From positions 1 to 40,465 of the forward strand of contig CAJXOB010000009.1 of NCBI GenBank assembly GCA_913057955.1: a stretch of 40,465 nt of DNA, in the 5' to 3' direction. The notes under the pieces are model-generated. The model did no database searches and had not been told where the DNA came from. It was given only the letters and a program-made list of their open reading frames with translations. Source of the DNA: an uncultured Gammaproteobacteria bacterium. Its GTDB lineage: Bacteria > Pseudomonadota > Gammaproteobacteria > PS1 > Pseudothioglobaceae. The translations under genes and the position numbers were made by a program. This document shows, piece by piece, positions 1,184 through 32,554 of the stretch. Every line of letters begins with the position of its first letter. Positions within the stretch are counted from its first letter, which is position 1.

Positions 1184-1185
1184 AT

Positions 1186-4192: not shown

Positions 4193-4201
4193 GGAAGAAT
4201 T

Positions 4202-6030: not shown

Positions 6031-6042
6031 GAGTATCCGAAA

Positions 6043-12042: not shown

Positions 12043-12047
12043 AAATT

Positions 12048-12977: not shown

Positions 12978-13048
12978 TTTGCTGAATAAGGTTTTGTACG
13001 AAGTAAAAAAGTAAGAAAAATTGTTAAATAACTTAAAGGAGAATAAGT

Positions 13049-14134: not shown

Positions 14135-14159
14135 TAAAAGTTTATTAAGTAATATTACT

Positions 14160-15226
<1,067 letters not shown>

Positions 15227-15328: not shown

Positions 15329-15355
15329 CAAATAGTGGAACTATGTGCTAATATA
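15329..15355. promoter_or_regulatory. candidate IclR operator half-site / degenerate palindrome upstream of the sugar operon
   Basis: CAAATAGTGGAACT (15329-15342) is the exact reverse complement of 29416-29429 in the iclR/glpD intergenic region; lies about 140 nt before the SBP gene. Confidence 0.6.
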
Positions 15356-15483
15356 TGGAAATATTTATTCACATGAATTTAAATTTATGTATACTTAATC
15401 TTGATTTGTCATATATAGGTGTATCTATGTCACAAGAGATATGCAATCAAAGAGGTTTTTTTATAATTTAGGAGAAAATAATA

Positions 15484-16722
15484 ATGAAAAAAATATTTAA
15501 AACGCAAATAGCTCTAGCTCTAGCCGGTATCTTGGCTGGAACATCTGCTATTGCTGGAACAATTGTCATCAATGGTGACACTTCTGATCCAGCGCCAAAG
15601 GCGGCATTTCAGGCAGTTATTGATGGATTTGAAGCTGAAAACCCAGATGTAAACGTTGTTTACAATCTTTTTGATCATGAAGGCTATAAAGCTGCAATTC
15701 GCAACTTTCTAAGTGCTGATGCTCCAGATATTTCATTCTGGTATGCGGGTAACAGAATGGCACCATTTGTTGATGCAGGATTGTTTGCACCAATTGATGA
15801 TGTTTGGGCTGACCAAGGACTTTACTCACTAATGAAGACGTCTGCTCCAGGTATGACTATGGATGGTAAGAAGTGGGGAATTCCTTATACTTATTACAAC
15901 TGGGGTGTTTACTATCGTCAAGATATCTTTGAAGACCTAGGTATTGCTGTTCCTAAAACTTGGGATCAATTCATTGCTGCTGGTAAAACTTTAAATGCAA
16001 ACGGTGTAACTCCAATTACAATTGGTACAAAATATCTATGGACTGCTGGTGGTGTATTTGATTACTTAAACCTTCGTACAAATGGATATGATTTCCATAT
16101 GGCTCTAACTAGAGGCGAGGTTGCTTGGACTGATGACCGTGTACGTGCAACTATGGCGAATTGGAAGCAACTGATTGATGCTGACTTTTTCCTTGAAAAT
16201 CATGCTGCTTTAAGCTGGCAAGAAGCATTAGCTCCTATGGGTAATGGTGAGGCTGCTATGTATGTTATGGGTAACTTTGCTGTTGCTCCACTACGCGAGT
16301 TAGGTTTGGATGACAGTAAGCTAGGTTTCTTCCAGTTTCCTGAAATAACTCCGGGAGTTCCTATGGCTGAAGAAGCGCCTACTGACACTATTCATTTATC
16401 TGCAGGTGCAAAAAACCCAGTTGACGCTAAGCGTTTCTTAGCTTATGCTGCGCGCGCTGACGTTCAGACTGCTTGGAATGAAGCGTTAGGTCAATTGCCT
16501 ACTAATGCGGGCTCAAGTGTTGTTGATGACAAGTTCTTGAATGCTGCATTTAATATGCTTAATAACGACGCCCCTGGTGGTGTTGCTCAGTTCTATGATC
16601 GTGATACTAAAGCTGAAATGGCCTCTATTGGCATGGAAAACTTTCAAGAGTTCATGGTTAAGCCTGAGCGCTTAGAGAAGATTCTAGAGCGTCTAGAAAA
16701 AGCTCGTGCAAAACTTTATTAA
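15484..16722 (+). CDS. sugar ABC transporter substrate-binding protein (extracellular solute-binding protein family 1)
   Basis: 412 aa; signal peptide; PDVNVVYNLFDHEGYKAAIRNFLSADAPDISFWYAGNRM and WGIPYTYYNWGVYYRQDIFEDLGI typical of CUT1 SBPs; RBS AGGAG. Confidence 0.92.
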   Translation: MKKIFKTQIALALAGILAGTSAIAGTIVINGDTSDPAPKAAFQAVIDGFEAENPDVNVVYNLFDHEGYKAAIRNFLSADAPDISFWYAGNRMAPFVDAGLFAPIDDVWADQGLYSLMKTSAPGMTMDGKKWGIPYTYYNWGVYYRQDIFEDLGIAVPKTWDQFIAAGKTLNANGVTPITIGTKYLWTAGGVFDYLNLRTNGYDFHMALTRGEVAWTDDRVRATMANWKQLIDADFFLENHAALSWQEALAPMGNGEAAMYVMGNFAVAPLRELGLDDSKLGFFQFPEITPGVPMAEEAPTDTIHLSAGAKNPVDAKRFLAYAARADVQTAWNEALGQLPTNAGSSVVDDKFLNAAFNMLNNDAPGGVAQFYDRDTKAEMASIGMENFQEFMVKPERLEKILERLEKARAKLY

Positions 16723-16740
16723 CCAATAAGGTTTTACTCT

Positions 16741-16780
16741 GTCCCGTGTTCAAGTATTCTTGACACGGGACTTTATTTTT
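16741..16780 (+). terminator. intra-operon hairpin/terminator between SBP and permease genes
   Basis: GTCCCGTGTTCAAG - TATT - CTTGACACGGGAC stem (one bulged T) followed by TTTATTTTT. Confidence 0.8.
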
Positions 16781-16803
16781 AATCAATAAAACTCGGAATA
16801 TGT

Positions 16804-17691
16804 ATGTATTCTTTCTGGAAAAATAATCAATTAAAGCTGTCACCCTGGATTTTTTTAGCCCCTGGCATCTTTATGTTTTCACTTTATGTTATTTTTCCAA
16901 TTTTTCAATCGATAAGTTTAAGCTTATATCAGTGGGATGGGCTCGGCGTAAAAACATATATTGGCGCTGATAACTATATCGAGCTATTAGATGATGAATA
17001 TTTTTACACTTCACTAAAAAACAATGTCATTTGGCTTGTTCTTTATATATTAGCAGTTCCTGCTGGCCTTTTTGCCGCGCTATTTCTGAATCAAACAGTA
17101 AGAGGCATAAGAATATACAAGTCACTATTTTTCTTTCCATTTGTAATTTCTCAAGTCGTCGTAGGATTAGTTTTTAGTTGGTTTTACGACCCTTCAAACG
17201 GACTCTTAAATGTGATCCTTGAAAACTTTGGATTTAGTCCTATTGCTATTTTGGCAGAGGAAGATTATGCGACATACGGAATCATTGCAGCGGGCTTATG
17301 GCCTCAAACTGCTTATTGTATGATTTTATATTTAACAGGACTAAATTCAGTTGATCCTGAGCAAATTGAAGCCGGCCGAATTGACAATGCAAGAGGCTGG
17401 AGAATGTTGTGGTATGTAATATTGCCTCAACTCAAACCTGCTACTTTTATTGCGGTTGTTGTTACCGTCATTGGTGCTCTAAGATCCTTTGATTTAATTT
17501 CTATTATGACAGCTGGTGGTCCGTGGGGATCCAGCCGTGTTCTTGCTTATTATATGTACGAAAAGGCATTTTCAGAGTATGGCTTTCGTATGGGCTACTC
17601 TGCGGCTATAGCAGTAGTCCTCCTTGGTATTATGATGATTTATATTGGACTTATTCTGTATAGATTGTATCGAGATGAAAAAGGCTATTAA
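16804..17691 (+). CDS. sugar ABC transporter permease (MalF/UgpA-like, CUT1)
   Basis: 295 aa; LAPGIFMFSLYVIFPIFQSISLSLYQWDG and EAGRIDNARGWRMLWYVILPQLKP EAA-type loop. Confidence 0.9.
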   Translation: MYSFWKNNQLKLSPWIFLAPGIFMFSLYVIFPIFQSISLSLYQWDGLGVKTYIGADNYIELLDDEYFYTSLKNNVIWLVLYILAVPAGLFAALFLNQTVRGIRIYKSLFFFPFVISQVVVGLVFSWFYDPSNGLLNVILENFGFSPIAILAEEDYATYGIIAAGLWPQTAYCMILYLTGLNSVDPEQIEAGRIDNARGWRMLWYVILPQLKPATFIAVVVTVIGALRSFDLISIMTAGGPWGSSRVLAYYMYEKAFSEYGFRMGYSAAIAVVLLGIMMIYIGLILYRLYRDEKGY

Positions 17692-17693
17692 AT

Positions 17694-18542
17694 ATGTTTC
17701 CGACTCCAATTGAAAAAACTAAATTATCCACTCAGCGCCTGTATAAGATAGCGCTGCCTATTGCTATGATTATTTGGCTTCTACCTCTCTTGGCAGTAGC
17801 TTTGACATCAGTTCGCTCAGGAGTTGATATCAACTCTGGCAACTACTGGGGAATGCCAACCTCTATTAACTTTTTTGAAAACTATACGGCTGTCTTTACA
17901 GACTCACCACTAGGTTATTACATTTTAAATAGTTTTAAAATAACCATTCCAACAGTGATTGGTGCGATTGTTCTTTCAAGCCTTACCGGCTTTGCATTAG
18001 GTGTTTATAGATTTAAACTTAATTTATTTGTATTTTTTATTTTTGTTGCTGGCAACTTTATTCCTTATCAAATACTTATGGTTCCAGTTAGAGATCTTTC
18101 TCTTGCGTTAGGCCTTTACAACTCTGTATGGGGGCTTGTTGCTTTTCATATAGCATTTCAAACCGGTTTTTGCACCTTCTTTATGCGCAACTTTATTCGC
18201 GCTCTTCCGTTTGAGTTAATCGAGGCTGCTAGAGTTGAAGGGGTTTCTGAATTTAAAATTTTCTGGTACGTCGTTGTTCCATTAATGAAGCCAGCAATGG
18301 CAGCATTATCTGTGCTAATTTTTACTTTCATATGGAATGATTATTTTTGGGCTCTTGTGTTGACTCAAGGGGCAGATGCAATGCCAATTACAGCAGGCTT
18401 AAACTCACTTAATGGTCAATGGATCGCTAACCAACACTTGGTTTCTGCTGGCTCTATAATTGCAGCCCTTCCACCAGTTTTAATGTTTTTCTTAATGCAA
18501 AAACATTTCATAGCTGGACTAACACTAGGGGCGGTTAAGTAA
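17694..18542 (+). CDS. sugar ABC transporter permease (MalG/UgpE-like, CUT1)
   Basis: 282 aa; EAARVEGVSEFKIFWYVVVPLMKPAMAAL EAA loop. Confidence 0.9.
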   Translation: MFPTPIEKTKLSTQRLYKIALPIAMIIWLLPLLAVALTSVRSGVDINSGNYWGMPTSINFFENYTAVFTDSPLGYYILNSFKITIPTVIGAIVLSSLTGFALGVYRFKLNLFVFFIFVAGNFIPYQILMVPVRDLSLALGLYNSVWGLVAFHIAFQTGFCTFFMRNFIRALPFELIEAARVEGVSEFKIFWYVVVPLMKPAMAALSVLIFTFIWNDYFWALVLTQGADAMPITAGLNSLNGQWIANQHLVSAGSIIAALPPVLMFFLMQKHFIAGLTLGAVK

Positions 18543-20623
18543 TGCAGCAATGGCGCATTGATACTCTTGACCAAACTTTGGTTTTTTCTTCATTGAATGA
18601 GAGACTTCCTTGCGTTATATATTGGGGTAATCGTTTACCTGAAAATGAAAACCTTGCTGATTTAGCTGATGCAGTAGCTAAAGATTGGGGGGACAACTTG
18701 CTGGATAAAGTTCCTGAGTTATCAGTCTCACCTGAGCAGTCTGCTAATTTTCCAGGACAACTCGGCTCTAAAATGAGAAGCCTTGATGGAAGAATTCTTT
18801 CAAGTAACTTTGTTTTCTCAGATAATAAAGTAGAAGAGAATTTGCTAATCTTAATTTATAGTGATGAGTCTTTAGAGCAAACATATACGCTAACAATAAG
18901 CGCATTTGAAGATAGTAATACGTTCACTCTTAGTGCCAAAATTGACAGTAAAGAACCAATATTTATGGACTGGCTTTCAGCCCCCGTAATTCAAGCACCT
19001 CAAAATAGTAACGAAATGATTGATTATGGAGGGCAGTGGAGTGGTGAATTTCGAAGCCAAAAAACTCCATGGGTTACAGGTGTTCATCTGCGTGAGTCAA
19101 GATCCGGAACAACAAGTCATGCAAACTTCCCAGGCTTGTTAATCCCAACTTTAGGAAGTTCAGAGAATTCAGGCTCTTGCTATGGCTTTCATTACGGATG
19201 GTCAGGCGGTCATCGCATGATTGCTGAGCAGCTTCCAGATGGTCGAAGGCAAGTTCAATTTGGAAATACTGAAAATAGTGAGCCGACTTCTGGAAATAGC
19301 TTTGAGACTGCAAAGCTATTTATTTGCCACTCTAGTAATGGAGTTGGAGGGGTAGGGCGGTCCTTTCGAAGTCATGTAGCTAATTCAATTATTGACTTAT
19401 CAAAAGATAGCATTAGACCAGTTCATTATAATTGTTGGGAGGCTATCTATTTTGATCATAATATTGACCAATTAAAAGAAATAGCCAGCCTAGCTTTTGA
19501 GATTGGAGCCGAAAGGTTTGTTCTTGACGACGGATGGTTCAAAGATCGCAATAATGCTAAATCGAGCCTTGGTGACTGGGTTGTTGATAAGAAAAAATAC
19601 CCAGATGGATTGCATCCATTAATTAAGCATATCAATTCCCTTGGAATGTCATTTGGATTGTGGTTTGAGCCAGAGATGGTTAGTCCTGATAGCGACCTTT
19701 ATCGCCGCCACCCTGAATGGATAATGGGTCACAAAGATCAAACCCTTGGGCGAGATCAATTAGTCCTTAATATCTCAATAAAAGATGTTGAAGATTATCT
19801 CTTTGAGAAAATTTCAGCCTTATTAGCGGAGTACCCAATTGAGTATATCAAGTGGGATCACAATCGAGTTTTGCCATTCCCCGATGCCTCGCAAACAAAT
19901 AGCTTATACGCACTTCTTAAGCGTATTAGATTAGCGTATCCAAATGTTGAGATCGAGTCATGCTCATCAGGTGGTGGCCGAATTGATTATGGCATCTTAG
20001 AGAGTACACAAAGAGTTTGGCTGTCTGATAGTAATGATGCAATTGAAAGGTTGCGTATTCAGCATGAGGCCATATTATGGTTACCTACCTCTATAACGGG
20101 AAGCCATGTTGGTCCAAAAGTTTGCCACACATCTGGGCGTGAACTTCCACTAGCTTTTAGAGCGTGGGTTGCAGCGCAAAGACATATGGGTTTTGAGATG
20201 GACCCTCGCGAACTTTCGACTTCAGATAAAACACTGTTGAAAGCTATTACTGGTTGGTGGAAAGAAAATCGCCAGTGGATGAAAGATGCAAATATTTTGA
20301 GGTTACCTTGTGTCGATAAAAGCATAACCGCTGAAATTCAAATTAATTCAAGCGCGGATCATTTTGTTGTTTTTGCAGGCCAAAACGCATCGTCAGATTT
20401 CAGCTCACCGCTACCGCTTGTGCTGGCTGGGCTTAAGCCAATGTCAATGTATAATATTTCCTTATATAATAAAAATCAGATCAGCTCTCTTGGTAAAACA
20501 AAAGGTGGTCTTTTACAAAAAACATTAAAACTTAGCGGGCATTTTTTAATGAGTCATGGATTACAATTACCTAAAGCTTTTCCTGCTAATATGATGGTAA
20601 TAGAAGGGGATAAAGCTGCATGA
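18542..20623 (+). CDS. alpha-galactosidase (GH36), no signal peptide apparent
   Basis: 693 aa; FVLDDGWFKDRNNAKSSLGDWVVDKKKYPDGLHPLIKHINSLGMSFGLWFEPEMVSPDSDLYRRHPEW and nucleophile region YIKWDHNR; typical GH36. Confidence 0.93.
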   Translation: MQQWRIDTLDQTLVFSSLNERLPCVIYWGNRLPENENLADLADAVAKDWGDNLLDKVPELSVSPEQSANFPGQLGSKMRSLDGRILSSNFVFSDNKVEENLLILIYSDESLEQTYTLTISAFEDSNTFTLSAKIDSKEPIFMDWLSAPVIQAPQNSNEMIDYGGQWSGEFRSQKTPWVTGVHLRESRSGTTSHANFPGLLIPTLGSSENSGSCYGFHYGWSGGHRMIAEQLPDGRRQVQFGNTENSEPTSGNSFETAKLFICHSSNGVGGVGRSFRSHVANSIIDLSKDSIRPVHYNCWEAIYFDHNIDQLKEIASLAFEIGAERFVLDDGWFKDRNNAKSSLGDWVVDKKKYPDGLHPLIKHINSLGMSFGLWFEPEMVSPDSDLYRRHPEWIMGHKDQTLGRDQLVLNISIKDVEDYLFEKISALLAEYPIEYIKWDHNRVLPFPDASQTNSLYALLKRIRLAYPNVEIESCSSGGGRIDYGILESTQRVWLSDSNDAIERLRIQHEAILWLPTSITGSHVGPKVCHTSGRELPLAFRAWVAAQRHMGFEMDPRELSTSDKTLLKAITGWWKENRQWMKDANILRLPCVDKSITAEIQINSSADHFVVFAGQNASSDFSSPLPLVLAGLKPMSMYNISLYNKNQISSLGKTKGGLLQKTLKLSGHFLMSHGLQLPKAFPANMMVIEGDKAA

Positions 20624-22335
20624 GTAAAGCTAACAATCGTCGATCGTCTAATTGGTATGGAAAAATGGATAAAGATGGATTTATTCATAGAAGCTGGATG
20701 AAGAGTCAAGGCTTTCCTGACCATGTATTTGATGGCCGTCCTATAATTGGAATTTGCAACACTTGGTCCGAATTAACACCGTGCAACGCAGGCCTAAGAA
20801 CTCTTGCTGAAGGTGTCAAGAGAGGCGTTTGGGAGGCTGGAGGCCTACCACTCGAATTTCCTGTAATGTCATTGGGTGAAACCCAAATGAAACCAACTGC
20901 AATGCTTTTTCGAAATCTTTTATCTATGGATGTTGAGGAAAGTATTCGTGCTTATGGAATTGACGGCGTTGTTTTGCTAGGTGGCTGCGACAAAACTACC
21001 CCAGGACAGTTAATGGGAGCAGCAAGCGTCGATTTACCGACAATTGTTGTCTCTTCTGGCCCAATGCTTAATGGCAAATATAAAGGTCAAGATATTGGCT
21101 CTGGAACCGATGTTTGGCGCTTCTCTGAAGATGTTAGGGCTGGAGACATGTCTTTACAGGATTTTATGTCTGCTGAAACAGGAATGAGCCGCTCATCTGG
21201 AGTTTGCATGACCATGGGAACTGCATCCACAATGGCAAGCTTGGTTGAAGGGATGGGGTTAAGCTTACCCACGAATGCCGCCATTCCTGCCGTTGACGCT
21301 AGGAGAATGGCTCTTGCACATATGACAGGAAAGCGCATTGTAGAAATGGTTGAAGAGGGCTTAAACTTATCCAAAGTTTTAACAAAAGAAAGCTTTCAAA
21401 ATGCTATTACATTAAACAGTGCGGTTGGCGGGTCAACTAATTCAGTAATTCACTTATTGGCTTTAGCAGGCAGAGCTGAAATTGAGCTTACTTTAGAGGA
21501 TTTTGAAAAAGCTGCAGACATACCGCTTCTTGTTAATTGCATGCCTTCAGGTAAATACCTAATGGAAGATTTCTGCTATGCAGGAGGAGTTCCAGCTGTA
21601 TTAGAGCAAATTAAGGACCATATAAAGTCTGCTAATACCGTTCTAAACAAAGACATAACTAGCTACTTCAAAGGTGCTGAAACATTCAATGAGGACGTCA
21701 TTCGGCCAATAAATAACCCACTAAAGCCTGCCGCAGGATTAAAAGTATTGAGAGGAAATTTGGCTCCAAATGGCGCAATCATTAAGCCAGCTGCCGCTAC
21801 AGAAAGCCTATTAAAACATGAAGGCTTGGCCTATGTATTTGAAGATATTGAAGATCTAAAGGCTAATATTGATAGGCCTGACCTTCCAGTCACAAAAAAC
21901 TCTATTTTAGTTTTAAAGGGGTGTGGGCCGAAGGGCTATCCAGGAATGCCTGAGGTTGGCAATATGCCAATACCAAAGGTTTTAATTGAACAAGGAGTTC
22001 GGGACATGATCCGTATTTCAGATGCTCGAATGTCAGGCACTGCCTTCGGAACTATAGTTCTCCATGTCTCTCCTGAGGCGAATGTAGGTGGTCCTATTTC
22101 AATAGTTGAGACTGGTGATCGCATTCGACTTGACGCTTTTAATGGGGTGCTTGAGCTTCTAGTTTCAGAAGCTGAAATTGAGAGCCGCACCAAAGCTAGG
22201 AAAGAGCCAAAAGTAAATTACACTCGCGGATATGCAAAACTTTATATTGATCACGTTATGCAGGCTGATAAAGGTGCAGACCTTGACTTCCTTGTGGGCA
22301 AAGACACACGACTTCCAACTCGAGAATCACATTAA
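20620..22335 (+). CDS. IlvD/Edd family sugar-acid dehydratase (probable galactonate/arabonate-type dehydratase)
   Basis: 571 aa; GICNTWSELTPCN, LLGGCDKTTPGQLMGAAS, AVGGSTNSVIHLLALAGRA, GCGPKGYPGMPEVGN; most similar by eye to sugar-acid dehydratases of the IlvD/Edd family rather than biosynthetic IlvD. Confidence 0.88.
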   Translation: MSKANNRRSSNWYGKMDKDGFIHRSWMKSQGFPDHVFDGRPIIGICNTWSELTPCNAGLRTLAEGVKRGVWEAGGLPLEFPVMSLGETQMKPTAMLFRNLLSMDVEESIRAYGIDGVVLLGGCDKTTPGQLMGAASVDLPTIVVSSGPMLNGKYKGQDIGSGTDVWRFSEDVRAGDMSLQDFMSAETGMSRSSGVCMTMGTASTMASLVEGMGLSLPTNAAIPAVDARRMALAHMTGKRIVEMVEEGLNLSKVLTKESFQNAITLNSAVGGSTNSVIHLLALAGRAEIELTLEDFEKAADIPLLVNCMPSGKYLMEDFCYAGGVPAVLEQIKDHIKSANTVLNKDITSYFKGAETFNEDVIRPINNPLKPAAGLKVLRGNLAPNGAIIKPAAATESLLKHEGLAYVFEDIEDLKANIDRPDLPVTKNSILVLKGCGPKGYPGMPEVGNMPIPKVLIEQGVRDMIRISDARMSGTAFGTIVLHVSPEANVGGPISIVETGDRIRLDAFNGVLELLVSEAEIESRTKARKEPKVNYTRGYAKLYIDHVMQADKGADLDFLVGKDTRLPTRESH

Positions 22336-23105
22336 TGAATAATTATGCAATCTTTAAAGACTTAGAAGATACCTCAGTTTTTATTACGGGTGGCGGCTCT
22401 GGTATTGGCGCATCATTGACAGAGGGTTTTTTAGCACAAGGTGCAAAAGTTGCATTTGTGCAGAGATCAGATTGCGATGAATTTCTAGATGAAGTTTCTT
22501 CGAAATATAAACATAACCCCTTATTTATCAAATGTGATATTACTGATATTGATGCTCTAAAGTCTGCAATATTAGATGCAAGTAATGCTAATGGTGGAAT
22601 TAATGTGCTGATAAATAATGCCGCTAATGACACGCGCCACACCCTTGCAGCTATGACAACAGAAGAATGGGATCAGTCAATTAATATTAATCTAAGGCCT
22701 CATTTCTTTACAGCCCAGGCTGTGGCACCTTTTATGAAAACCCAAGGCGGCGGCAGTATTATTAATTTTTCATCAAACTCTTATATGATGGGTAATGCTG
22801 GTTTGCCCGCTTATGTTACTTCTAAAGCTGGAATTACAGGCTTAACAAGAAGTTTAGCGAGAGAGCTTGGTGTTGATGGCATTAGAGTAAACACGCTGAT
22901 TCCTGGCTGGGTTCTGACTGAAAGGCAGTTAAGGCTATGGGCAAATGATAAAGACTTAGCAAGTCATATGGAAAAACAATGCATTAAGGAACACTTAGTG
23001 CCTAACGATTTAATTGACTCCACATTATTTTTAGCTTCGGACGCGTCTCGAATGATGACCGGCCAAGCTTTAGTGATTGATGGCGGAGTTGTAGTTACAG
23101 GATAA
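22335..23105 (+). CDS. SDR family sugar dehydrogenase (probable D-galactose 1-dehydrogenase)
   Basis: 256 aa; ITGGGSGIG, NNAANDTRHT, YVTSKAGITGLTRSLARELG; resembles aldose 1-dehydrogenases; substrate inferred from context. Confidence 0.8.
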   Translation: MNNYAIFKDLEDTSVFITGGGSGIGASLTEGFLAQGAKVAFVQRSDCDEFLDEVSSKYKHNPLFIKCDITDIDALKSAILDASNANGGINVLINNAANDTRHTLAAMTTEEWDQSININLRPHFFTAQAVAPFMKTQGGGSIINFSSNSYMMGNAGLPAYVTSKAGITGLTRSLARELGVDGIRVNTLIPGWVLTERQLRLWANDKDLASHMEKQCIKEHLVPNDLIDSTLFLASDASRMMTGQALVIDGGVVVTG

Positions 23106-23114
23106 AAGAGAACA

Positions 23115-24026
23115 ATGAAAGAATTAAAGGCTAAATGGATTGCTGCAGATTGGGGAACAACTCATATGCGCGCTTGGGCTATTAATGAGCAGGGTAAAGT
23201 TCTTGCTTATAGTGAATCAAACGAAGGCATGAAAGATCTTCAGCAGAATGAATTCGAGCCAGTATTGTTACGCCTTATTGAAAGTTGGCTAGATAGTGAA
23301 AAAGTAACGCCTGTCATGGCTTGTGGAATGGTTGGTGCGCGTCAAGGGTGGGTTGAAACGCCATATTTAAAGGCTCCATGTGTACCTATTGATAAAAATC
23401 AACTAACTGTTGCGACTACAAAAGACACCAGAATCCAGGTCACCTTAGTGCCTGGGGTTATGCAGCACAATCCTGCCGATATCATGCGGGGTGAGGAAAC
23501 TCAAATTGCTGGATTTATTAAAGAAAATCCTGGCTTTGATGGCATTGTTTGCCTTCCTGGAACTCATACAAAATGGGTTAATGTAAAGGCAGGTCAAATA
23601 GAAAAATTTAAAACGTTTATGACTGGCGAGCTTTTTGGCGTAATCTCTAATGAAACTTTAATTAAGCATTCCATATCAACTAAAGGTTGGGATCAAGATA
23701 GTTTTAAAAAAGGAGTACTTCAAGGTTTTAAAAGTCCAGGCACTATTGCATCCGATCTTTTTTCATTAAGAGCTGAATCAATAGTGAATGAGTTGGATTT
23801 TGATGCGGCTAAATCAACACTTTCAGGCTTACTTCTAGGTCTTGAGCTTAATGGTGTGCAAGACTATTGGAAAGATAGAGACGTAACAATTATTGGTTCG
23901 GAATTGTTGTCAAATAATTACCAACAAGGTTTAAACATATTAGGTGGAGAATGTAAGCCATTTGATCTCGAAACTGCAACGCTATCAGGACTGACTTCTG
24001 CTTACATGGAATTACACTCTGATTAA
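23115..24026 (+). CDS. dgoK: 2-dehydro-3-deoxygalactonokinase
   Basis: 303 aa; IAADWGTTHMRAWAINEQGKVL, MACGMVGARQGWVETPYL, VCLPGTHTKWVNVKAGQI, TFMTGELFGVI typical of DgoK. Confidence 0.93.
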   Translation: MKELKAKWIAADWGTTHMRAWAINEQGKVLAYSESNEGMKDLQQNEFEPVLLRLIESWLDSEKVTPVMACGMVGARQGWVETPYLKAPCVPIDKNQLTVATTKDTRIQVTLVPGVMQHNPADIMRGEETQIAGFIKENPGFDGIVCLPGTHTKWVNVKAGQIEKFKTFMTGELFGVISNETLIKHSISTKGWDQDSFKKGVLQGFKSPGTIASDLFSLRAESIVNELDFDAAKSTLSGLLLGLELNGVQDYWKDRDVTIIGSELLSNNYQQGLNILGGECKPFDLETATLSGLTSAYMELHSD

Positions 24027-24030
24027 GTAT

Positions 24031-24636
24031 ATGAATAGAAATATAATTGCTATATTACGAGGCATTAAACCCGAAGAAGTTCTCGATACAGTTCATGTTA
24101 TTGTTAAATCAGGGATTACTCAAGTTGAAGTGCCACTAAACTCACCTAGCGCTTTTGAAAGTATCGAGATGCTTCGTGATGAGTTCGAAGGGTCAATTCA
24201 ATTTGGCGCTGGAACAGTAACAGATATAAAGCAGGTTGAAGTCCTGGCTAAAATTGGTGTGGATTTTGTTGTCTCACCTAATTTTGACTCTGCTGTTGTA
24301 AGGGCAACTAAGGAGGCAGGTATATTAAGCTTTCCTGGGGTGATTACCCCAACAGAATGCTTTTCTGCATTAAATTGCGGGGCGGATGGTTTAAAGTTTT
24401 TTCCAGCCTCACTTATTGGAACAGATAATCTAATCGCATTAAGAGCTGTTTTGCCAACAGATGTCCCTCTTTACATGGTCGGTGGCGTTGGCCCAAAAAA
24501 CTTTTCAGCCTGGATTAAGGCTGGTGCTACTGGTTTTGGAATAGGGTCAGGGCTTTATAAAGCTGGTGATTCTCCTGAAGTAGTTGCCAAAAAAGCTGAG
24601 TCGATTGTTTTGTCATACGATGAAGCACAAATATGA
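24031..24636 (+). CDS. dgoA: 2-dehydro-3-deoxy-6-phosphogalactonate aldolase
   Basis: 201 aa; NIIAILRGIKPEEVL, ITQVEVPLNSPSAFESI, FGAGTVTDIKQVE, KFFPASLIG; typical KDPGal aldolase. Confidence 0.92.
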   Translation: MNRNIIAILRGIKPEEVLDTVHVIVKSGITQVEVPLNSPSAFESIEMLRDEFEGSIQFGAGTVTDIKQVEVLAKIGVDFVVSPNFDSAVVRATKEAGILSFPGVITPTECFSALNCGADGLKFFPASLIGTDNLIALRAVLPTDVPLYMVGGVGPKNFSAWIKAGATGFGIGSGLYKAGDSPEVVAKKAESIVLSYDEAQI

Positions 24637-25496
24637 TCAATGACTATCTACCAGTAGATTCCTCTGATTTAGGAGAGGGGCCTTTATGGCATCCAAAGCT
24701 AAAGTCTCTATTCTGGTTTGATATAAATTCCTTTAAGATGCATAATTGGAGTAACTCTAAACTTAAAACTTGGGTATTTTCTGAGCCAGTCTCAGCTGCA
24801 GGATGGATTGATGAAGAGCACTTAATGGTTGCAACTGCATCCTCATTAACTAAGCTTGCCTTATCAACTGATACAAGAGAGTTAATTGTTAATTTAGAAG
24901 GCAGTATGATTCACACCCGATCAAATGATGGGCGCGCTGATCCCTGGGGCGGTTTTTGGATTAGTACAATGGGACTAAATGCCGAGGCAGATGCTGGCTC
25001 TATTTACCGCTTCTATAAAGGTGAGCTAAGACAATTACATCAAAATATTACAATCCCTAATAGTATTTGCTTTTCCCCAGATCAAAATTTTGGATATTTT
25101 GCAGATACTCGTAAAATGAAAATCTGGAAACAGAAATTAGATCAATCCAATGGCTGGCCCACTCATGACCCAATTATTTTTGTTGATTTGGAGTCTCAAG
25201 GCCTTCATCCTGATGGTTCAGTTTGTGATAGTGAGGGCTATTTATGGAATGCACAGTATGGCGCCTCTAGGATCGCAAGATATAGCCCTAATGGTCAACT
25301 GGATCAAGTGATTAACTTTCCAGTTTCTCAGGTTACTTGTCCTGCTTTTGGTGGAGACTCATTAAATACTATTTATACTACAACGGCCTATCAGAACTTA
25401 AATAGTAATAATTTGAAAGTTGAACCTTTGGCTGGCAAAATATTTTATTTTCAATCAGAGATAACTGGCTTAGCTGAGCATCAAATTATAGCGTGA
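24633..25496 (+). CDS. SMP-30/gluconolactonase/LRE family sugar lactonase (probable galactonolactonase)
   Basis: 287 aa; LGEGPLWHPKLKSLFWFDI, RSNDGRADPWGGFWISTMG, PNSICFSPDQNFGYFADT, HPDGSVCDSEGYLWNAQYG motifs. Confidence 0.88.
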   Translation: MINDYLPVDSSDLGEGPLWHPKLKSLFWFDINSFKMHNWSNSKLKTWVFSEPVSAAGWIDEEHLMVATASSLTKLALSTDTRELIVNLEGSMIHTRSNDGRADPWGGFWISTMGLNAEADAGSIYRFYKGELRQLHQNITIPNSICFSPDQNFGYFADTRKMKIWKQKLDQSNGWPTHDPIIFVDLESQGLHPDGSVCDSEGYLWNAQYGASRIARYSPNGQLDQVINFPVSQVTCPAFGGDSLNTIYTTTAYQNLNSNNLKVEPLAGKIFYFQSEITGLAEHQIIA

Positions 25497-25503
25497 GGAG
25501 ATT

Positions 25504-27405
25504 ATGATTCCAAAACTAGGAAGTTGCTATTATCCAGAACACTGGCCTGAGGCTCAATGGCACAAGGATGCAAAAGATATGGTCAATTCAGGCTTGTCAT
25601 GGGTTCGAATAGGCGAGTTTGCGTGGAGCCGTTTAGAGCCGGAAGAGGGCATTCAAAATTTTGACTGGCTTGACCGAGCTATAACAGTTCTAGGTGACGC
25701 TGGTTTGGATGTGGTTATGAGCACTCCAACCGCGGCTCCCCCAAGATGGGTTGTTGATAAATGGCCTGATATGCTTCTTGTCGACTCTGAGGGTCAACCT
25801 CGTAAATTTGGCTCAAGACGGCATTACTGCTTTTCACACAAAGGTTATTTTCAAGAGTCATCAAGAATTACAAAGATTGTTGCAGAGCGATATGGAAAAA
25901 ATCCTTATATTAAGGCATGGCAATTAGACAATGAATATGGTTGTCATGATACTACTTTGTCATTTAGTGCTTCATCAGAAAGTGCATTTAAGCTTTGGCT
26001 GTTTGACAAATATAAGACGATTGAGAATCTTAATGAGGTCTGGAAAAATGTATTTTGGTCTATGGAATATAATAATTTTGAGCAAATTGAATTACCAAAT
26101 TTAACCGTTACTGATGCAAATCCAATTCACGAGTTAGACTTTAAAAGGTTTAGTTCCGATCAAGTTGTGAAATTCAACCGCTCTCAAGCTTTTATAATGC
26201 GCGAACATACAAAAATGCCACTTATTCATAACTATATGGGAAAAATTACAGATTTTGATCATTATGAGGTGGGTGATGATTTGGATATTGCAAGCTGGGA
26301 TAGCTATCCTTTGGGATTTTTAGAGGATCGCTCGACTCAAAATGAAGACTTTAAGCTTAAATTTATGCGCTTTGGAGATCCTGATTTTCAGGCATTTCAC
26401 CATGACCTATACAGGACCGTTGGGCGAGGCCGTTGGTGGGTAATGGAGCAGCAGCCTGGACCCGTGAATTGGGCGCCCTACAACCCTGAGCCAGCTACTG
26501 GGGCTGTGAGACTTTGGTCTTGGGAAGCAATCGCACACGGAGCAGAGGTGGTAAGTTATTTTCGCTGGAGGCAAGCCCCTTTTGCTCAGGAACAAATGCA
26601 CGCAGGACTTCAAAGGCCAGATGGTGAGTCAGCTCCTGGCTTAATTCAAGCTTCACAGGTCAACTCTGAATTAAAAGAGTTTACGGATATTCAGCAGGTT
26701 CAATCAAAGGTTGCTTTAGTCTTTGATTATGAAAGCTGTTGGGCATGGGAAGTCCAACCCCAGGGCAAAGAATTTAGTTATTTTGGACTGGTATATGATT
26801 ACTATAGGGCTCTACGAAGCCTTGGTCTTTCGGTTGATATGCTGGCACCTAATCAAAAAGATTTAAGTGGGTATAAGATTGTTCTTATGCCTGGGTTAAT
26901 GCATGTGACTGACAACCTTAAAATAGCAATTGAGTCTTTTGAAGGTGTCGTAATTTCTGGCCCCAGAACTGGCTCAAAGACATTAGATATGACTATTCCA
27001 AATGGACTTCCTCCAATAGTTCCAGGTGTTATAGGTACTGTTGCTAGCGTTGAATCTCTTAGGCCAAATGCAAGCATTTCAATCAAAGCTGGCGGTAACT
27101 TTAATTGCTGGATGGAAACCTTGGTGGATTGCGACAATGTTATTGAGAGCTGCGAAGATGGCCGCCCAGCGGTAATTGGCCAAAAAAATAGACCCTATTT
27201 AGTGGGATGGGCAGATCAGAAGGCCTTAAAAAGAATGTTTAAAGAGGCTTGCTTGTCTCAAAGCATTCCTATAACGCAGATGCCGGATTGTGTCAGGGTT
27301 CGTGAAACGCTTAAACATCGTTTTTGGTTTAACTATAGCGAGACAGAATCAAAGGTTGGAGCTATTAAACTTCCACCTTCTGGAGTTTTCTGGGAGCCCC
27401 TTTAA
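25504..27405 (+). CDS. beta-galactosidase (GH42), no signal peptide apparent
   Basis: 633 aa; GSCYYPEHWPEAQWHKDAKDMVNSGLSWVRIGEFAWSRLEPEEG, STPTAAPPRWV, AWQLDNEYGCHDT, WVMEQQPGPVNWAPYNP; typical GH42. Confidence 0.94.
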   Translation: MIPKLGSCYYPEHWPEAQWHKDAKDMVNSGLSWVRIGEFAWSRLEPEEGIQNFDWLDRAITVLGDAGLDVVMSTPTAAPPRWVVDKWPDMLLVDSEGQPRKFGSRRHYCFSHKGYFQESSRITKIVAERYGKNPYIKAWQLDNEYGCHDTTLSFSASSESAFKLWLFDKYKTIENLNEVWKNVFWSMEYNNFEQIELPNLTVTDANPIHELDFKRFSSDQVVKFNRSQAFIMREHTKMPLIHNYMGKITDFDHYEVGDDLDIASWDSYPLGFLEDRSTQNEDFKLKFMRFGDPDFQAFHHDLYRTVGRGRWWVMEQQPGPVNWAPYNPEPATGAVRLWSWEAIAHGAEVVSYFRWRQAPFAQEQMHAGLQRPDGESAPGLIQASQVNSELKEFTDIQQVQSKVALVFDYESCWAWEVQPQGKEFSYFGLVYDYYRALRSLGLSVDMLAPNQKDLSGYKIVLMPGLMHVTDNLKIAIESFEGVVISGPRTGSKTLDMTIPNGLPPIVPGVIGTVASVESLRPNASISIKAGGNFNCWMETLVDCDNVIESCEDGRPAVIGQKNRPYLVGWADQKALKRMFKEACLSQSIPITQMPDCVRVRETLKHRFWFNYSETESKVGAIKLPPSGVFWEPL

Positions 27406-27415
27406 GGGTTATTTG

Positions 27416-28474
27416 TTATTTGACTCGAAGTTCAGTTTTAGGATCAAAAAACAAAGCTGAAGTGGTGTTTGCCTCTATTCCAACCTTTGACCCTGTTATT
27501 GGTAATTTGTTCTCTCTTGACTCTAGAACAACTCTTTCGCCATCTGGAGTTTTCAAGTAAACATATGAAATGTCTCCAAGCGCTTCAGTAAACTCAACTT
27601 CAAGATCTCCGGACTTAGCAAGTTTTAAATGTTGCGGCCTTAATCCAACAATCAGTTCGGTCATAGATGAGGTGATCGATTTACTTACTTTGAGTTTTGA
27701 GGAGTTAAGATTTGGCATTGATAATTTTGAATCAACAATACTACCTTTTAAAAAATTGATAGTTGGTGAGCCAATAAAGCCGGCAACAAAAATATTTTGA
27801 GGGTCTTCATATAACTCTAAAGGTCTACCTACTTGTTGAATTAAGCCTTCTTTAAGAACGACTATTTTATCTGCAAGTGTCATAGCCTCTACTTGGTCAT
27901 GAGTAACATAAATGATAGTAGTCCCTAGCTCACGATGAAGGCGAGAAATTTCAACACGCATTTCAACCCTAAGCTCAGCATCAAGATTGGATAAAGGTTC
28001 GTCAAATAAAAATACTTCTGGTCCTCTTACAATAGATCTCCCAATAGCGACTCTTTGCCTTTGTCCGCCTGACAAAGTTTTAGGCTTCCTATCCAAGTAA
28101 TCCTCAAGGTGAAGAATACTCGCTGCATCATTAACTTTTTTATCAATTTCATCAGAAGGAACTTTTGTCATTTTAAGACCAAAGCCCATATTTTCTCGAA
28201 CTGTCATGTGGGGGTATAGTGCATAAGATTGAAAAACCATTGCAATCCCTCTATCCGCTGGATGCATGGTAGTGACGTCTTTTTCACCAATATAAATTTG
28301 ACCACTTGTGACCTCTTCAAGACCAGAGATCATTCTAAGTAATGTTGATTTTCCGCAACCTGATGGCCCAACAAATACACAAAATTCACCATCCTCGATT
28401 TCTAAATCAATTCCATGAATAACCTCTACTTTGTCGTATTTTTTTGTTGCTTTGGAAATTTTTAAAGATGCCAT
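27416..28474 (-). CDS. sugar ABC transporter ATP-binding protein (UgpC/MsmK/MalK type)
   Basis: 352 aa; Walker A GPSGCGKST, LSGGQRQRVAIGRSIVRGPEVFLFDEPLSNLDAELR, C-terminal TOBE-like region. Confidence 0.93.
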   Translation of the reverse strand: MASLKISKATKKYDKVEVIHGIDLEIEDGEFCVFVGPSGCGKSTLLRMISGLEEVTSGQIYIGEKDVTTMHPADRGIAMVFQSYALYPHMTVRENMGFGLKMTKVPSDEIDKKVNDAASILHLEDYLDRKPKTLSGGQRQRVAIGRSIVRGPEVFLFDEPLSNLDAELRVEMRVEISRLHRELGTTIIYVTHDQVEAMTLADKIVVLKEGLIQQVGRPLELYEDPQNIFVAGFIGSPTINFLKGSIVDSKLSMPNLNSSKLKVSKSITSSMTELIVGLRPQHLKLAKSGDLEVEFTEALGDISYVYLKTPDGERVVLESRENKLPITGSKVGIEANTTSALFFDPKTELRVK

Positions 28475-28496
28475 ATCAGCGGTGTCCTTATATTAA

Positions 28497-29285
28497 TTAG
28501 TTGTGTTGTTCGGGAAAATTCCACGCTCCGGCTTCTTTTCCGATTAATTTTGAAGTCTCGAGTAATTGAGGCTTGTACTCTTCAAGGCTCTCAAGGCTAT
28601 GTATGTCAATTGAGCTGGTAATAGATAGCCCGCCAATTACTCTCCCCTTTACAGAAAGAATAGGGGATGAGATACAAATAATTTTTGCTTCATGTTCTTG
28701 CTTGTCAAAAGATATTCCTTGTTTTTTTATTATAGCTAATTCTTTGCGAAGCTCTTTTTCTGAAGTGATTGTAAAGTCGGTATATTTAAAGAATGCTTGT
28801 TTAGAAATAACTCTACTTAGCTCATCCTCGTCTAAAAATGCCATCATTGCTTTACCCACACCTGTGCAGTATGCAGGCCCAACTTTACCAGCTTGAGAGT
28901 ACATCTCAATCGGTGAGCTAGGATTTCTTTTATCAACATAAAGGACTTGACCGTTATCAAGCTGTGCCAAGTGAACAGTTTCACTAACTTTGTCAGATAG
29001 CTCGTCAATAAATGGAAGTGCTATTGGCGCCAGTGAGCTTTGAAGCCAGGCTGCATGAGCCATTCGAACTAACTTTAACCCAAGTTTATAGGTTTGCTCT
29101 TCTGCGTTATAACTCAGCATATCTTGATTAAGGAGAGTTTGAAGGAGTCTATATAGGGTTGCCTTAGGATACTTGCTAGTCTTTAGAAGGCTTGAAAAAC
29201 GTACTGGTGAACCGATTTCTGCAACCTCATTAAGAACATCTAATGCCTTGCCAACTGTTCCATCCCCTCGTTTTTCTGTAGCCAT
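28497..29285 (-). CDS. IclR family transcriptional regulator
   Basis: 262 aa; N-terminal wHTH (KALDVLNEVAEIGSPVRFSSLLKTSKYPKATLYRLLQTL) and IclR effector domain (VGPAYCTGVGKAMMAFL). Confidence 0.92.
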   Translation of the reverse strand: MATEKRGDGTVGKALDVLNEVAEIGSPVRFSSLLKTSKYPKATLYRLLQTLLNQDMLSYNAEEQTYKLGLKLVRMAHAAWLQSSLAPIALPFIDELSDKVSETVHLAQLDNGQVLYVDKRNPSSPIEMYSQAGKVGPAYCTGVGKAMMAFLDEDELSRVISKQAFFKYTDFTITSEKELRKELAIIKKQGISFDKQEHEAKIICISSPILSVKGRVIGGLSITSSIDIHSLESLEEYKPQLLETSKLIGKEAGAWNFPEQHN

Positions 29286-29402
29286 GTTTTTCTATATATT
29301 TTATTAAATTATTATTACTTGAATGATATGTTATATATGATTAACAGGTCATTTAGCGTTTTAATTTTAGCAGATAATGTATACTATTTTGAATAAGTTT
29401 AC

Positions 29403-29427
29403 AATAGTAGAACTAAGTTCCACTATT
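29403..29427. promoter_or_regulatory. 25-bp near-perfect palindrome, candidate IclR operator
   Basis: AATAGTAGAACT-A-AGTTCCACTATT: 12-nt arms, 11/12 complementary, between divergent iclR (start 29285) and glpD (start 29460); TATACT (29380-29385) just upstream. Confidence 0.75.
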
Positions 29428-29459
29428 TGGAAAAAGTTACTAAATAAAATAGAATTTCA

Positions 29460-30956
29460 ATGAATAAAATTTACGATATTTTTATTGTCGGTGGTGGTAT
29501 TAATGGGTGTGGCATTGCTAGAGACGCTGCAAGTAGAGGTTATAGCGTAAATCTTGCTGAAAAAAATGATCTATCAAGTGGCACATCATCGGCTTCATCA
29601 AAGTTAATTCATGGTGGATTACGATACCTTGAAAATTATGAGTTCCTACTTGTAAGAAAAGCGCTAAAGGAGCGCGATACATTGCTTAGTATTGCTCCAC
29701 ATATTGTTAAAGAGTCTAGAATAATTTTACCTCATCATAAAGGGCTTCGACCAGCATGGATGCTGAAATTAGGGTTGATGCTTTATGACAGTCTTTACTT
29801 CTCAAAGTTTATTAAGCGCTCAAGACCAATTGATATTTTATCTCATGAATCTAAAGGAGTCTTGTTAGACTCTTATTCAAAAGGTTTTGAGTATTCAGAT
29901 TGCACAGCTGATGACTCCAGGCTTACCATTCTTAATGCAGTAGATGCTAAAAAATTTGGCGCTCATATCTCCACTAGAACTTTTGTTAATAAAATAGAAC
30001 AAATTGATAATATTTGGGAAATTCAAACGACAAATTCTTTAACAGGAGAAAGTCAGACTGTTAAAGCTAAAGTTGTTATAAATGCAACTGGCCCATGGGT
30101 AGATACTTTTCTAAAAGACAGTTATCAAAAATCAAGTGCTAATAATATTAGACTGGTTAAAGGTAGCCATGTCGTTCTAAAAAAGATATTTAATCATAGC
30201 TACTCATATATCTTTCAAAATGCTGATGGCCGAATATTCTTTGCAATCCCATGGGAGGGAGAGTTTACATTTATAGGCACAACTGACGTTGATTTCAATG
30301 AAGACATTGATGACATTTCAGCTTCAGAGGCTGAGATTAGCTACATCATTGAATCGGCAAATGAGTATTTTAATAATAAAATATCTAGAGGTGATGTTGT
30401 TAGTAGCTGGAGTGGCGTTCGCCCATTATTTGAAAATGGCAACCAAAAGGCTCAGAAAGTATCACGTGATTATGTCATTCGAGAGGATAGTCAAATTGAC
30501 GATAGCGCACTAGTTAATGTTTTCGGAGGCAAGCTTACAACTTTTAGACAGCTCTCAGAGGACGTTGTCGACCTAATTGGATCAATCATTGGTCAAAAAA
30601 AACCATCATCCACAAGTAAAAATCATTTACCAGGCGGCAACTTTAAAGCAATTGATAAAGAAGCTCTAATTCATGACCTGAGTAAAAAGTATGATTATCT
30701 GGATTTAGACTATCTTGAGCGTCTTTATAATTTGTATGGTACAAGGGCAGAGTTAGTTTTAAGCAAGGTTTTTACGATTGACGATCTAGGGCTTAATTTT
30801 GGTAAAAGTTTGTACCAAGTAGAGGTTGATTATTTAATGCAAGAGGAGTTTGCCCTCTTCCCAGAAGACATAACTGAGAGACGCACAAAGCTTTATTTAT
30901 TTTTAAATGAAAATAATTTAAAAGAGTTGGGTAAATATATGGAAAAAAATAGGTAA
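29460..30956 (+). CDS. glpD: glycerol-3-phosphate dehydrogenase (FAD)
   Basis: 498 aa; DIFIVGGGINGCGIARDAASRG, SGTSSASSKLIHGGLRYLENYEF, GTTDVDF, FGGKLTTFRQLSEDV typical of GlpD. Confidence 0.95.
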   Translation: MNKIYDIFIVGGGINGCGIARDAASRGYSVNLAEKNDLSSGTSSASSKLIHGGLRYLENYEFLLVRKALKERDTLLSIAPHIVKESRIILPHHKGLRPAWMLKLGLMLYDSLYFSKFIKRSRPIDILSHESKGVLLDSYSKGFEYSDCTADDSRLTILNAVDAKKFGAHISTRTFVNKIEQIDNIWEIQTTNSLTGESQTVKAKVVINATGPWVDTFLKDSYQKSSANNIRLVKGSHVVLKKIFNHSYSYIFQNADGRIFFAIPWEGEFTFIGTTDVDFNEDIDDISASEAEISYIIESANEYFNNKISRGDVVSSWSGVRPLFENGNQKAQKVSRDYVIREDSQIDDSALVNVFGGKLTTFRQLSEDVVDLIGSIIGQKKPSSTSKNHLPGGNFKAIDKEALIHDLSKKYDYLDLDYLERLYNLYGTRAELVLSKVFTIDDLGLNFGKSLYQVEVDYLMQEEFALFPEDITERRTKLYLFLNENNLKELGKYMEKNR

Positions 30957-31008
30957 TATTTACAAATAGTTAATTGATTATTAAGAATATAAATAGAGTG
31001 AAAACAAT

Positions 31009-32508
31009 ATGACAAATTCTAAAAAATATATATTATCTATTGATCAAGGTACAACGTCATCTAGAGGTATTTTATTTGACTCAGAGTATCAAATTGCAGC
31101 CATAGGCCAAAAAGAATTTACTCAATTTTTTCCAAATTCAGGGTGGGTTGAGCATGACCCGGAAGAGATTTGGCTTTCAACTCTTGAGAGTTGCAATATT
31201 GCCATCAAAGAGGCCAAAATAGAGCCCAATCAAATCATCTCTATAGGAATTACTAATCAGCGTGAAACAACGGTTGTTTGGGATAAAGAAACAGGTAAGC
31301 CAATATACAATGCCATAGTTTGGCAAGACAGGAGAACCTCAGATCAATGTAAAGATTTGCGAGAGCAAGGCCATGAGGCTAGAGTTACTAAAAAGACTGG
31401 CCTATTGCTTGATCCATATTTTTGCGCTACTAAAATTGCTTGGATTCTTGATAATGTTGAGGGTGCAAGAGATAAAGCAAATGAAGGTAAGTTAGCTTTT
31501 GGAACGATTGATAGTTTTCTATTGTGGCGATTAAGCGATAAAAAAGTTCACGCAACTGATGCTACTAACGCCTCTAGAACTCTTTTATACAATATTCATG
31601 AAGGGTGCTGGGATGAGGATTTACTAAAGCTTTTTAATATTCCTAAATCAATGCTATCAATGGTTTGTGATAGTGCGGCAAACTTTGGCAAGGCTCACAA
31701 GTCTTTTTTCGGATCTGAAATACCTATTTCTAGTTTAATTGGTGATCAGCCTTCCGCTCTTGTTGGTCAGGCATGCTTTGAACCAGGAATGGTTAAATCG
31801 ACCTATGGAACCGGATGTTTTGTTTTAATAAATACTGGAGACAATCCAGTTCAATCAAAAAATAAATTACTAACAACTATCGCCTTTCAAATTAACAATA
31901 AGCCTTGCTATGCGCTTGAGGGATCAATATTTGTTGCAGGTGCGGCTATTCAATGGCTTCGTGATGACCTAAAATTCATAGAGTCAGCTGAAGAATCAGA
32001 GCAGCTTGCGATTCAAGCCGACCCGAACCAAGAGGTTTATTTGGTTCCTGCATTTGTAGGATTGGGGGCTCCGTATTGGGATCCTGATTGTAGAGGAGCG
32101 CTATATGGCCTTACAAGAAGCACGGGGCCTGCTGAGATTACAAAAGCAGCGCTAGAGTCGGTGTGTTATCAGACGTCAGATCTTCTGACAGCAATTACGA
32201 AAGATTTGAGTGAAAATGAATTAACTACTATTAGGGTAGATGGCGGTATGGCTGCATCAAATTGGACCATGCAGATGCTTTCAGATCTTCTTAATTTGCC
32301 AGTTGATAGACCAAAAAACCTAGAGACAACTGCTCTGGGCGCGGCATATTTAGCGGGAATGCAGGTAGGTTTTTATCCTCAAATTGATGAGTTTTCTAAG
32401 TCATGGAAATCTGAAAGCCAATTTAATTCACAAATGCCTGAAGATGAGAGGCAAAAAAAACTTTCTGGATGGAAGGATGCAGTAAATCGAACTCTGTCCA
32501 CTAAGTAA
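31009..32508 (+). CDS. glpK: glycerol kinase
   Basis: 499 aa; [76 protein letters not shown]. Confidence 0.96.
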
Positions 32509-32554
32509 TTAAAATATAATCAACATACTATTTATTTTGAATTCTTAGATTAGT

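Follow-up and report, generated by a model that had tools for sequence, protein, structure and literature searches.

A putative galactosylglycerol operon and its operator link to glycerol kinase in Ca. Pseudothioglobus

Thylakoid membranes have galactolipids as their main lipids. The locus described here raises the question of whether galactolipid head-groups, once deacylated, are consumed by Ca. Pseudothioglobus (SUP05/PS1 clade), the small-genome ocean bacterium that is the host of the window (the whole stretch of 40,465 nucleotides that was analysed). Based on gene content and regulation, we consider it probable, at roughly 60%, that the operon is a galactosylglycerol (MGDG/DGDG head-group) module within a wider glycerolipid head-group regulon.

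Genes and enzymes of the locus

All of the open reading frames were found where the first-pass annotation had placed them, and HMM searches bore out its gene set of a CUT1 transporter, GH36, GH42, non-phosphorylating galactose enzymes, an ATPase, IclR, glpD and glpK. The ten genes from the sugar-binding protein to GH42 all lie on the forward strand with intergenic gaps of -4 to +81 bp, forming one tight operon, and are followed by the ATPase, iclR, glpD and glpK. The operon begins with the CUT1 sugar-binding protein (15484..16722; SBP_bac_1), which has a signal-peptide-like N-terminus, and two permeases of the MalF/UgpA type (16804..17691) and the MalG/UgpE type (17694..18542), both matching BPD_transp_1. 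With the UgpC/MsmK-type ATPase (27416..28474, reverse strand; HMM), the binding protein, two permeases and UgpC/MalK-type ATPase of a CUT1 importer are all present within one locus. The ATPase is encoded on the opposite strand, yet it travels with the galactoside operon among relatives and is presumed to be the partner of the transporter. The nearest solved relative of the binding protein (best PDB match, E 4e-52) is AcbH, a galactose-binding protein of Actinoplanes; the AcbGFH system takes up the monosaccharide galactose, and the comparison with the window protein is by sequence only.

The GH36 alpha-galactosidase (18542..20623; Melibiase HMM, E 8.5e-103) keeps the KWD nucleophile motif and the SDSNDA motif with its acid/base SD, and the GH42 beta-galactosidase (25504..27405; GH42 HMM, 4.7e-141) keeps the catalytic glutamate motifs NEYG and MEQQPG. 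No apparent signal peptide was seen in either sequence. The GH36 family also takes in raffinose enzymes.

Between the two glycosidases lie an IlvD/Edd-family sugar-acid (galactonate-type) dehydratase (20620..22335; HMM), an SDR aldose (galactose) 1-dehydrogenase-like protein (22335..23105; SDR HMM), the 2-keto-3-deoxygalactonokinase DgoK (23115..24026; DGOK HMM, 9.9e-95), the 2-keto-3-deoxy-6-phosphogalactonate aldolase DgoA (24031..24636; a KDPG/KDPGal aldolase, PRK09140 over cut-off) and an SMP-30 sugar lactonase (24633..25496; HMM). All families of the De Ley-Doudoroff route, namely galactose dehydrogenase, lactonase, galactonate dehydratase, DgoK and DgoA, are therefore represented, the SDR, lactonase and dehydratase being putative members by family. 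Glucose and fructose/sucrose enzymes were not found among the HMM families of the window's operon, and annotated versions of the operon have no glucose or fructose enzyme. The absence of glucokinase, from which a substrate of only galactose and glycerol had been argued, holds for the window but not for the genome, which encodes one elsewhere (G000:C12:8044-8964, E 2e-99). That argument has been dropped, and the genomic glucokinase keeps glucose-bearing galactosides among the candidates.

A common operator and the glycerol genes

The transporter operon is preceded by an IclR-type operator, ATAGTGGAACTATGTGCTAATAT (15332..15354, forward strand), which ends 13 nt ahead of a promoter-like TTCACA-16-TATACT (15368-15395). 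A second site, ATAGTAGAACTAAGTTCCACTAT (29404..29426), lies between iclR (28497..29285, reverse strand; HMM) and glpD (29460..30956, forward strand; HMM over cut-off). These are the only two sites of the palindrome in the window's genome at up to 2 mismatches, and the reversed pattern has none at the same threshold. Both are conserved across the genus. The glp-side site scores 24 bits with a matrix trained only on transporter sites, and with the combined matrix 0/300 shuffles of the glp-side region reach its score. IclR is predicted to bind this operator, with its effector and the direction of control also at the level of prediction. Two further operator-like sites with 3 mismatches in the window's genome (contigs C30 and C45) have no relevant genes nearby and look like chance, and 2-mismatch sites in two other genomes (G006 and G023) stand in unrelated gene surroundings.

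The IclR occurs in 15 of the 29 genus genomes, over which adjacency was counted. GlpK (31009..32508, forward strand; HMM over cut-off) is divergent from IclR in 15/15, which together with the common operator would place glycerol kinase in the regulon of the galactosidases. The gene glpD sits between them in just 3/15; its adjacency is not kept and has been discarded as evidence. Outside the genus, glpDK adjacency is seen for just one of the 60 relatives that are informative, a Rhodobacterales MAG (L072), so conservation of this neighbourhood, the loss of which the first-pass annotation had named as refuting its proposal, fails there. The separation in the other 59 counts against our reading. 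In the MAG, IclR, ATPase, glpD and glpK form a separate tight operon. The MIP channel of the window's genome has NPA motifs that are AqpZ-like, not GlpF-like, which weakly suggests that most glycerol may be generated intracellularly.

Sister species provide further members. The operator stands with 0 mismatches ahead of ugpBAEC in two of them (G011 and G012), and a sulfoquinovose operon abuts glpK in five (PS1, G008, G011, G012 and G024), at the glpK/8-oxoguanine deaminase junction that is empty in the window (32509..32554). Among clusters that lack a DeoR regulator of their own, 5 of 7 have a weaker operator, with 3 mismatches, ahead of this operon; among those that possess one, 0 of 4 do. 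The sister clusters contain the GH188, isomerase, kinase and aldolase of a sulfo-EMP pathway, although the isomerase match, at 302 bits, is under the model cut-off of 700; the GH188 keeps the R-L-K (Arg-Leu-Lys) sulfonate motif of SqgA. Neither the sulfoquinovose operon nor a ugpB of the sister type was found in the window's own genome, an observation that also counts against our reading. What galactosides, sulfoquinovosides and glycerophospho-compounds have in common is glycerol. The proposed glycerol link thus stands on more than adjacency to the operon: the operator common to the galactoside operon and the glp(D)K/IclR promoter region, the constant position of glpK in the genus, and two glycerol-linked sister operons behind a like operator.

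Relatives and the choice of substrate

The core of transporter, GH36, GH42 and dgo genes is found again in some 70 relatives, roseobacters for the most part and usually without glpDK, so the layout is not unique, contrary to what had been supposed. GH36 and GH42 stand together behind one transporter in 67 of 72 relatives, and the pairing is also seen with galK-galT replacing the dgo genes. Their joint retention fits a substrate with both alpha- and beta-galactose. On the megaplasmid of Ruegeria sp. TM1040 (512374-526412), the same genes are found in the same order with a divergent IclR-ATPase pair, but there is no adjoining glpDK and the IclR faces the binding protein gene, whereas that of the window faces the glp side. 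In roseobacter intergenic regions the perfect TGGAAC-N3-GTTCCA was not found, only related half-sites, GTTTCA-N5-TGRAAC.

These relatives lend some weight to another explanation, in which the operon scavenges alpha- and beta-galactosides in general (melibiose, raffinose, lactose-like or galactan oligosaccharides), the position of glpK beside iclR is incidental, and the function of the operator is autoregulation of iclR-ATPase. It agrees with the occurrence of the core, minus glpDK, in roseobacters, Nitrincolaceae and Rhizobium, with the genomic glucokinase and with the raffinose enzymes of GH36. At the promoter-like sites of the transporter and of iclR-ATPase the operator is placed immediately before the -35, and on the glp side it falls downstream of the likely -10, a geometry that suits the iclR-ATPase promoter, the control of which could be its main role. 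On the other hand, the invariable divergence of glpK within the genus, the separate IclR-ATPase-glpD-glpK operon of the Rhodobacterales MAG, the retained GH36/GH42 pair and the annotated operons free of glucose and fructose enzymes all speak against this explanation, as does the recurrence of the operator ahead of ugpBAEC and the sulfoquinovose operon, neither of which shares galactose with the galactoside operon. We regard it as rather unlikely.

It is improbable that the operon mainly serves to use the algal osmolyte floridoside or isofloridoside (alpha-galactosylglycerol), with GH42 kept for other beta-galactosides. Such a substrate would use GH36, the dgo genes and glpK, and some carriers appear to be red-algal by name or source (Octadecabacter dasysiphoniae, Rhodophyticola porphyridii and, from Grateloupia, Falsirhodobacter algicola); however, nearly all relatives retain a GH42 that would not be needed, Pseudothioglobus is open-ocean plankton, and co-regulation with a sulfoquinovose module is indicative of thylakoid lipids. 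Very improbable is an IclR that senses glycerol or glycerol-3-phosphate and controls the galactoside operon as one of several carbon sources, glycerol being no part of the galactoside: its regulon does include ugpBAEC and glpK, but the roseobacter homologue adjoins the galactoside operon rather than glp genes, with the related half-sites between them.

A probable glycerolipid head-group regulon

From gene content, order, conservation and operator sharing, we infer the following substrate and flux for the galactosylglycerol module. Small glycerol galactosides, most likely deacylated thylakoid galactolipid head-groups such as beta-galactosylglycerol (MGDG) or alpha-Gal-1,6-beta-Gal-glycerol (DGDG), would be imported by the binding protein, two permeases and separate ATPase acting as one importer. 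In the cytoplasm, GH36 would take off the alpha-galactose and then GH42 the beta-galactose. Breakdown of the two galactoses by the SDR dehydrogenase, SMP-30 lactonase, IlvD-type dehydratase, DgoK and DgoA would yield pyruvate and glyceraldehyde-3-phosphate, and GlpK and GlpD would turn the glycerol into dihydroxyacetone phosphate. A single IclR would govern both transcription units via the same palindrome, which suggests that a lipid remnant is consumed as a whole, its sugar along with its glycerol. The regulon of sister species would extend to the sulfoquinovose (sulfolipid head-group) operon and/or ugpBAEC, and we therefore prefer to regard it as serving glycerolipid head-groups at large. 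The regulon has no lipase, which counts against this reading.

The E. coli lac operon differs from that of the window in that it is not known to include an alpha-galactosidase, the dgo pathway or glycerol kinase, and its LacZ, LacY and LacI are of other families. As cited in PMC8333865, Egel (1979) proposed it as a galactosylglycerol system using the beta-galactosylglycerols of galactolipids via beta-galactosidase, a use similar to that envisaged here. Also comparable are the sulfoquinovosyl-glycerol clusters, one a sulfo-EMP cluster with the GH188 SqgA (PMC10755693) and one the sulfo-SFT cluster of E. rectale, which includes glycerol kinase (PMC11968277). They share with the system proposed here a delipidated thylakoid head-group, a dedicated glycosidase, and glycerol that is consumed or provided with a kinase; the window has galactose enzymes and no sulfoquinovose genes, such a cluster lying beside glpK in sister species. 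Our literature search found no paper naming a bacterial uptake route for deacylated galactolipid head-groups in the sea, nothing usable on galactose or glycerol use by Thioglobus singularis or on bacterial floridoside catabolism, and no biochemical data for any member of the window's operon.

More tentatively, at somewhat less than even odds, open-ocean Pseudothioglobus may use a single IclR regulon for every polar head-group found in the membrane glycerolipids of algae (the galactosylglycerols of MGDG and DGDG, the sulfoquinovosylglycerol of SQDG, and glycerophospho-compounds), with exchangeable modules around one glycerol kinase. Strains that can be cultured, Ruegeria sp. TM1040 among them, have the roseobacter version, which is hence open to assay. 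The locus is also relevant to the idea, proposed long ago, that the purpose of galactosidase operons is the use of galactosylglycerols and not of lactose. If our reading is true, a streamlined plankton group would have a testable system in which the fates of galactolipid, sulfolipid and phospholipid head-groups are tied together.

Operon structure and distribution

The window spans the whole of contig C9 (40,465 bp), from a genome of 1.57 Mb that is 97.5% complete, and every gene named in the first-pass annotation was found where it had been placed. From the gene of the sugar-binding protein (SBP) to GH42, ten consecutive genes are separated by gaps of only −4 to +81 bp and thus likely form one transcription unit. 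Read by eye, the SBP has a visible signal peptide while GH36 and GH42, whose catalytic motifs are intact, show none, which makes it probable that a small compound is imported and then hydrolysed in the cytoplasm. The nearest named relatives of GH36 belong to Candidatus Pseudothioglobus aerophilus and other SUP05/PS1-clade genomes (71–85% identity). The operon is flanked by a purine/nucleoside salvage cluster (185–15226; guaD, xdhABC, a BMP-type ABC transporter, and adenosine deaminase) and an 8-oxoguanine deaminase (32555–33919). An AGE-family isomerase (38487–39677) lies behind ompR/envZ; it is mannose-isomerase-like, below the model cut-off, and its superfamily also includes YihS-type sulfoquinovose isomerases.

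The core layout had been thought novel, but GH36 and GH42 share a locus behind the same transporter in 67 of 72 relatives outside the genus, and Ruegeria sp. TM1040 has the identical gene order. These relatives are mostly roseobacters, in which the IclR-ATPase pair diverges from the SBP gene. The galactose module is exchangeable, being represented by DgoD in Falsirhodobacter algicola and galK-galT in another gammaproteobacterium, and absent from the Rhizobium sp. BG4 operon. The transporter and the alpha-galactosidase, usually with the beta-galactosidase, are constant, suggesting either that the substrate contains both linkages or that alpha- and beta-galactosides are both taken up. Among solved structures, the SBP is closest to AcbH, reported as a galactose binder (PMC3364876).

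The operator and the glycerol genes

Compared side by side, the intergenic regions share a palindrome, ATARTRGAAC-N3-GTKCYAMTAT, which lies ahead of the SBP gene and again in the interval from iclR to glpD/glpK. Allowing two mismatches, it occurs in the window's genome at exactly these two places, and the reversed pattern has no match there. A longer operator pattern fits both places with 0–2 mismatches in the IclR-carrying genus genomes, with nothing comparable in near-complete genus genomes without the IclR; the operator matrix scores far above shuffled sequence. From the position of the palindrome and its co-occurrence with IclR, we infer that this protein is the binder. At the transporter promoter-like site, the operator immediately precedes the −35, and the iclR-ATPase promoter-like site has the same geometry. 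Towards glp, by contrast, the likely −10 comes first and the operator follows it, a road-block position that makes direct control of glpK plausible; this is the main weak point.

The IclR ortholog is present in 15 of 29 genus genomes, and glpK is divergent from it in all 15. The adjacency of glpD is not conserved, since it stands between IclR and glpK only in the window's genome (G000), G024, and G028. In near-complete genomes without this IclR, glpK has other surroundings (G015, G029, and G031); in G010 it follows a DeoR gene. The expected glpDK co-occurrence also fails beyond the genus: of 60 informative loci, just 1 has glpDK next to the operon. This one, from a Rhodobacterales MAG (L072), has IclR-ATPase-glpD-glpK with gaps of 16–17 bp and one 4 bp overlap, unlike the window.

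Beside glpK at L148:160-7572 lies a second Ugp-like ABC importer with a DeoR, a HAD phosphatase, a GlpD-like oxidase, and a Na/Pi cotransporter; a similar set adjoins a sulfoquinovose cluster at L190:55-7600. Both possibly import glycerol-3-phosphate for phosphate. The sole MIP channel of the window's genome (L137:4381-5055), AqpZ/AqpS-like in look, adjoins a small arsenate-reductase-like phosphatase gene.

The putative regulon in sister species

In two sister genomes, G011 and G012, a perfect operator precedes ugpBAEC, whose UgpB, UgpA, and UgpE exceed NCBIfam cut-offs; a Blc-like lipocalin gene follows (L152:2552-7359, L151:8085-12925). A sulfoquinovose cluster abuts glpK in G007 (a single contig of 1,714,148 bp, which we take to be Ca. 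Thioglobus singularis PS1), G008, G011, G012, G016, G020, G024, and G032. It encodes a GH188-type NAD-dependent glycosidase (match to SqgA, whose PDB codes were identified through PMC10755693, at E 9e-114; R-x3-L-x-K sulfonate motif intact), a sulfoquinovose-isomerase-like protein, an aldolase related to tagatose-bisphosphate and YihT aldolases, a PfkB kinase, a phosphoglycerate-dehydrogenase-like protein, and a CUT1 transporter. Sulfoquinovose operons with GH188 and a fucose-isomerase-like isomerase occur in Pseudothioglobus at L154:1459-11887, L197:4990-15400, L194, and L195; no earlier report from this clade was found in the literature searched. In the window, the junction of glpK (32508) and the 8-oxoguanine deaminase (32555) is exactly where this module is missing.

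A 3-mismatch operator is present in 5 of 7 clusters lacking their own DeoR (G007, G011, G012, G016, and G020; half-preserved in G008 and G024) versus none of 4 with a DeoR-like gene (hypergeometric 0.045, relatedness ignored). The latter are G005, identified by HMM, G032, similar by eye, and G014 and G018, assigned by size and place. In G014 and G010, glpD or glpDK lies inside or beside the cluster.

Substrate

The first-pass interpretation, galactosylglycerol catabolism, is partly supported. The glycerol link gains from the operator and regulon, evidence beyond a single-sequence reading, while the glpD and core-novelty arguments fall away. So does the claimed lack of glucokinase, which the genome has; the operon indeed contains no glucose enzymes, but this is a weak argument. 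In G024, glucokinase is apparently broken by stop codons (G024:C1:314258-314937; a MAG, sequencing error possible) and the galactoside operon is kept.

No published description of the operon or regulon was found in the freely accessible literature searched. That operons with galactosidases might be there for the use of galactosylglycerols is an idea dating to Egel 1979, as cited in PMC8333865. A glycerol kinase among head-group genes has a precedent in Eubacterium rectale, whose sulfoquinovosyl-glycerol cluster includes one (PMC11968277). For the DGDG head-group, GH36 and GH42 would be precisely the enzymes needed. Galactosides, sulfoquinovosides, and glycerophospho-compounds have glycerol as their common element, since it is part of every head-group left when MGDG/DGDG, SQDG, and phospholipids are delipidated, and glpK is the tool common to their use. 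From this regulon we infer the substrate: galactosylglycerols would be the most economical one for the window's operon.
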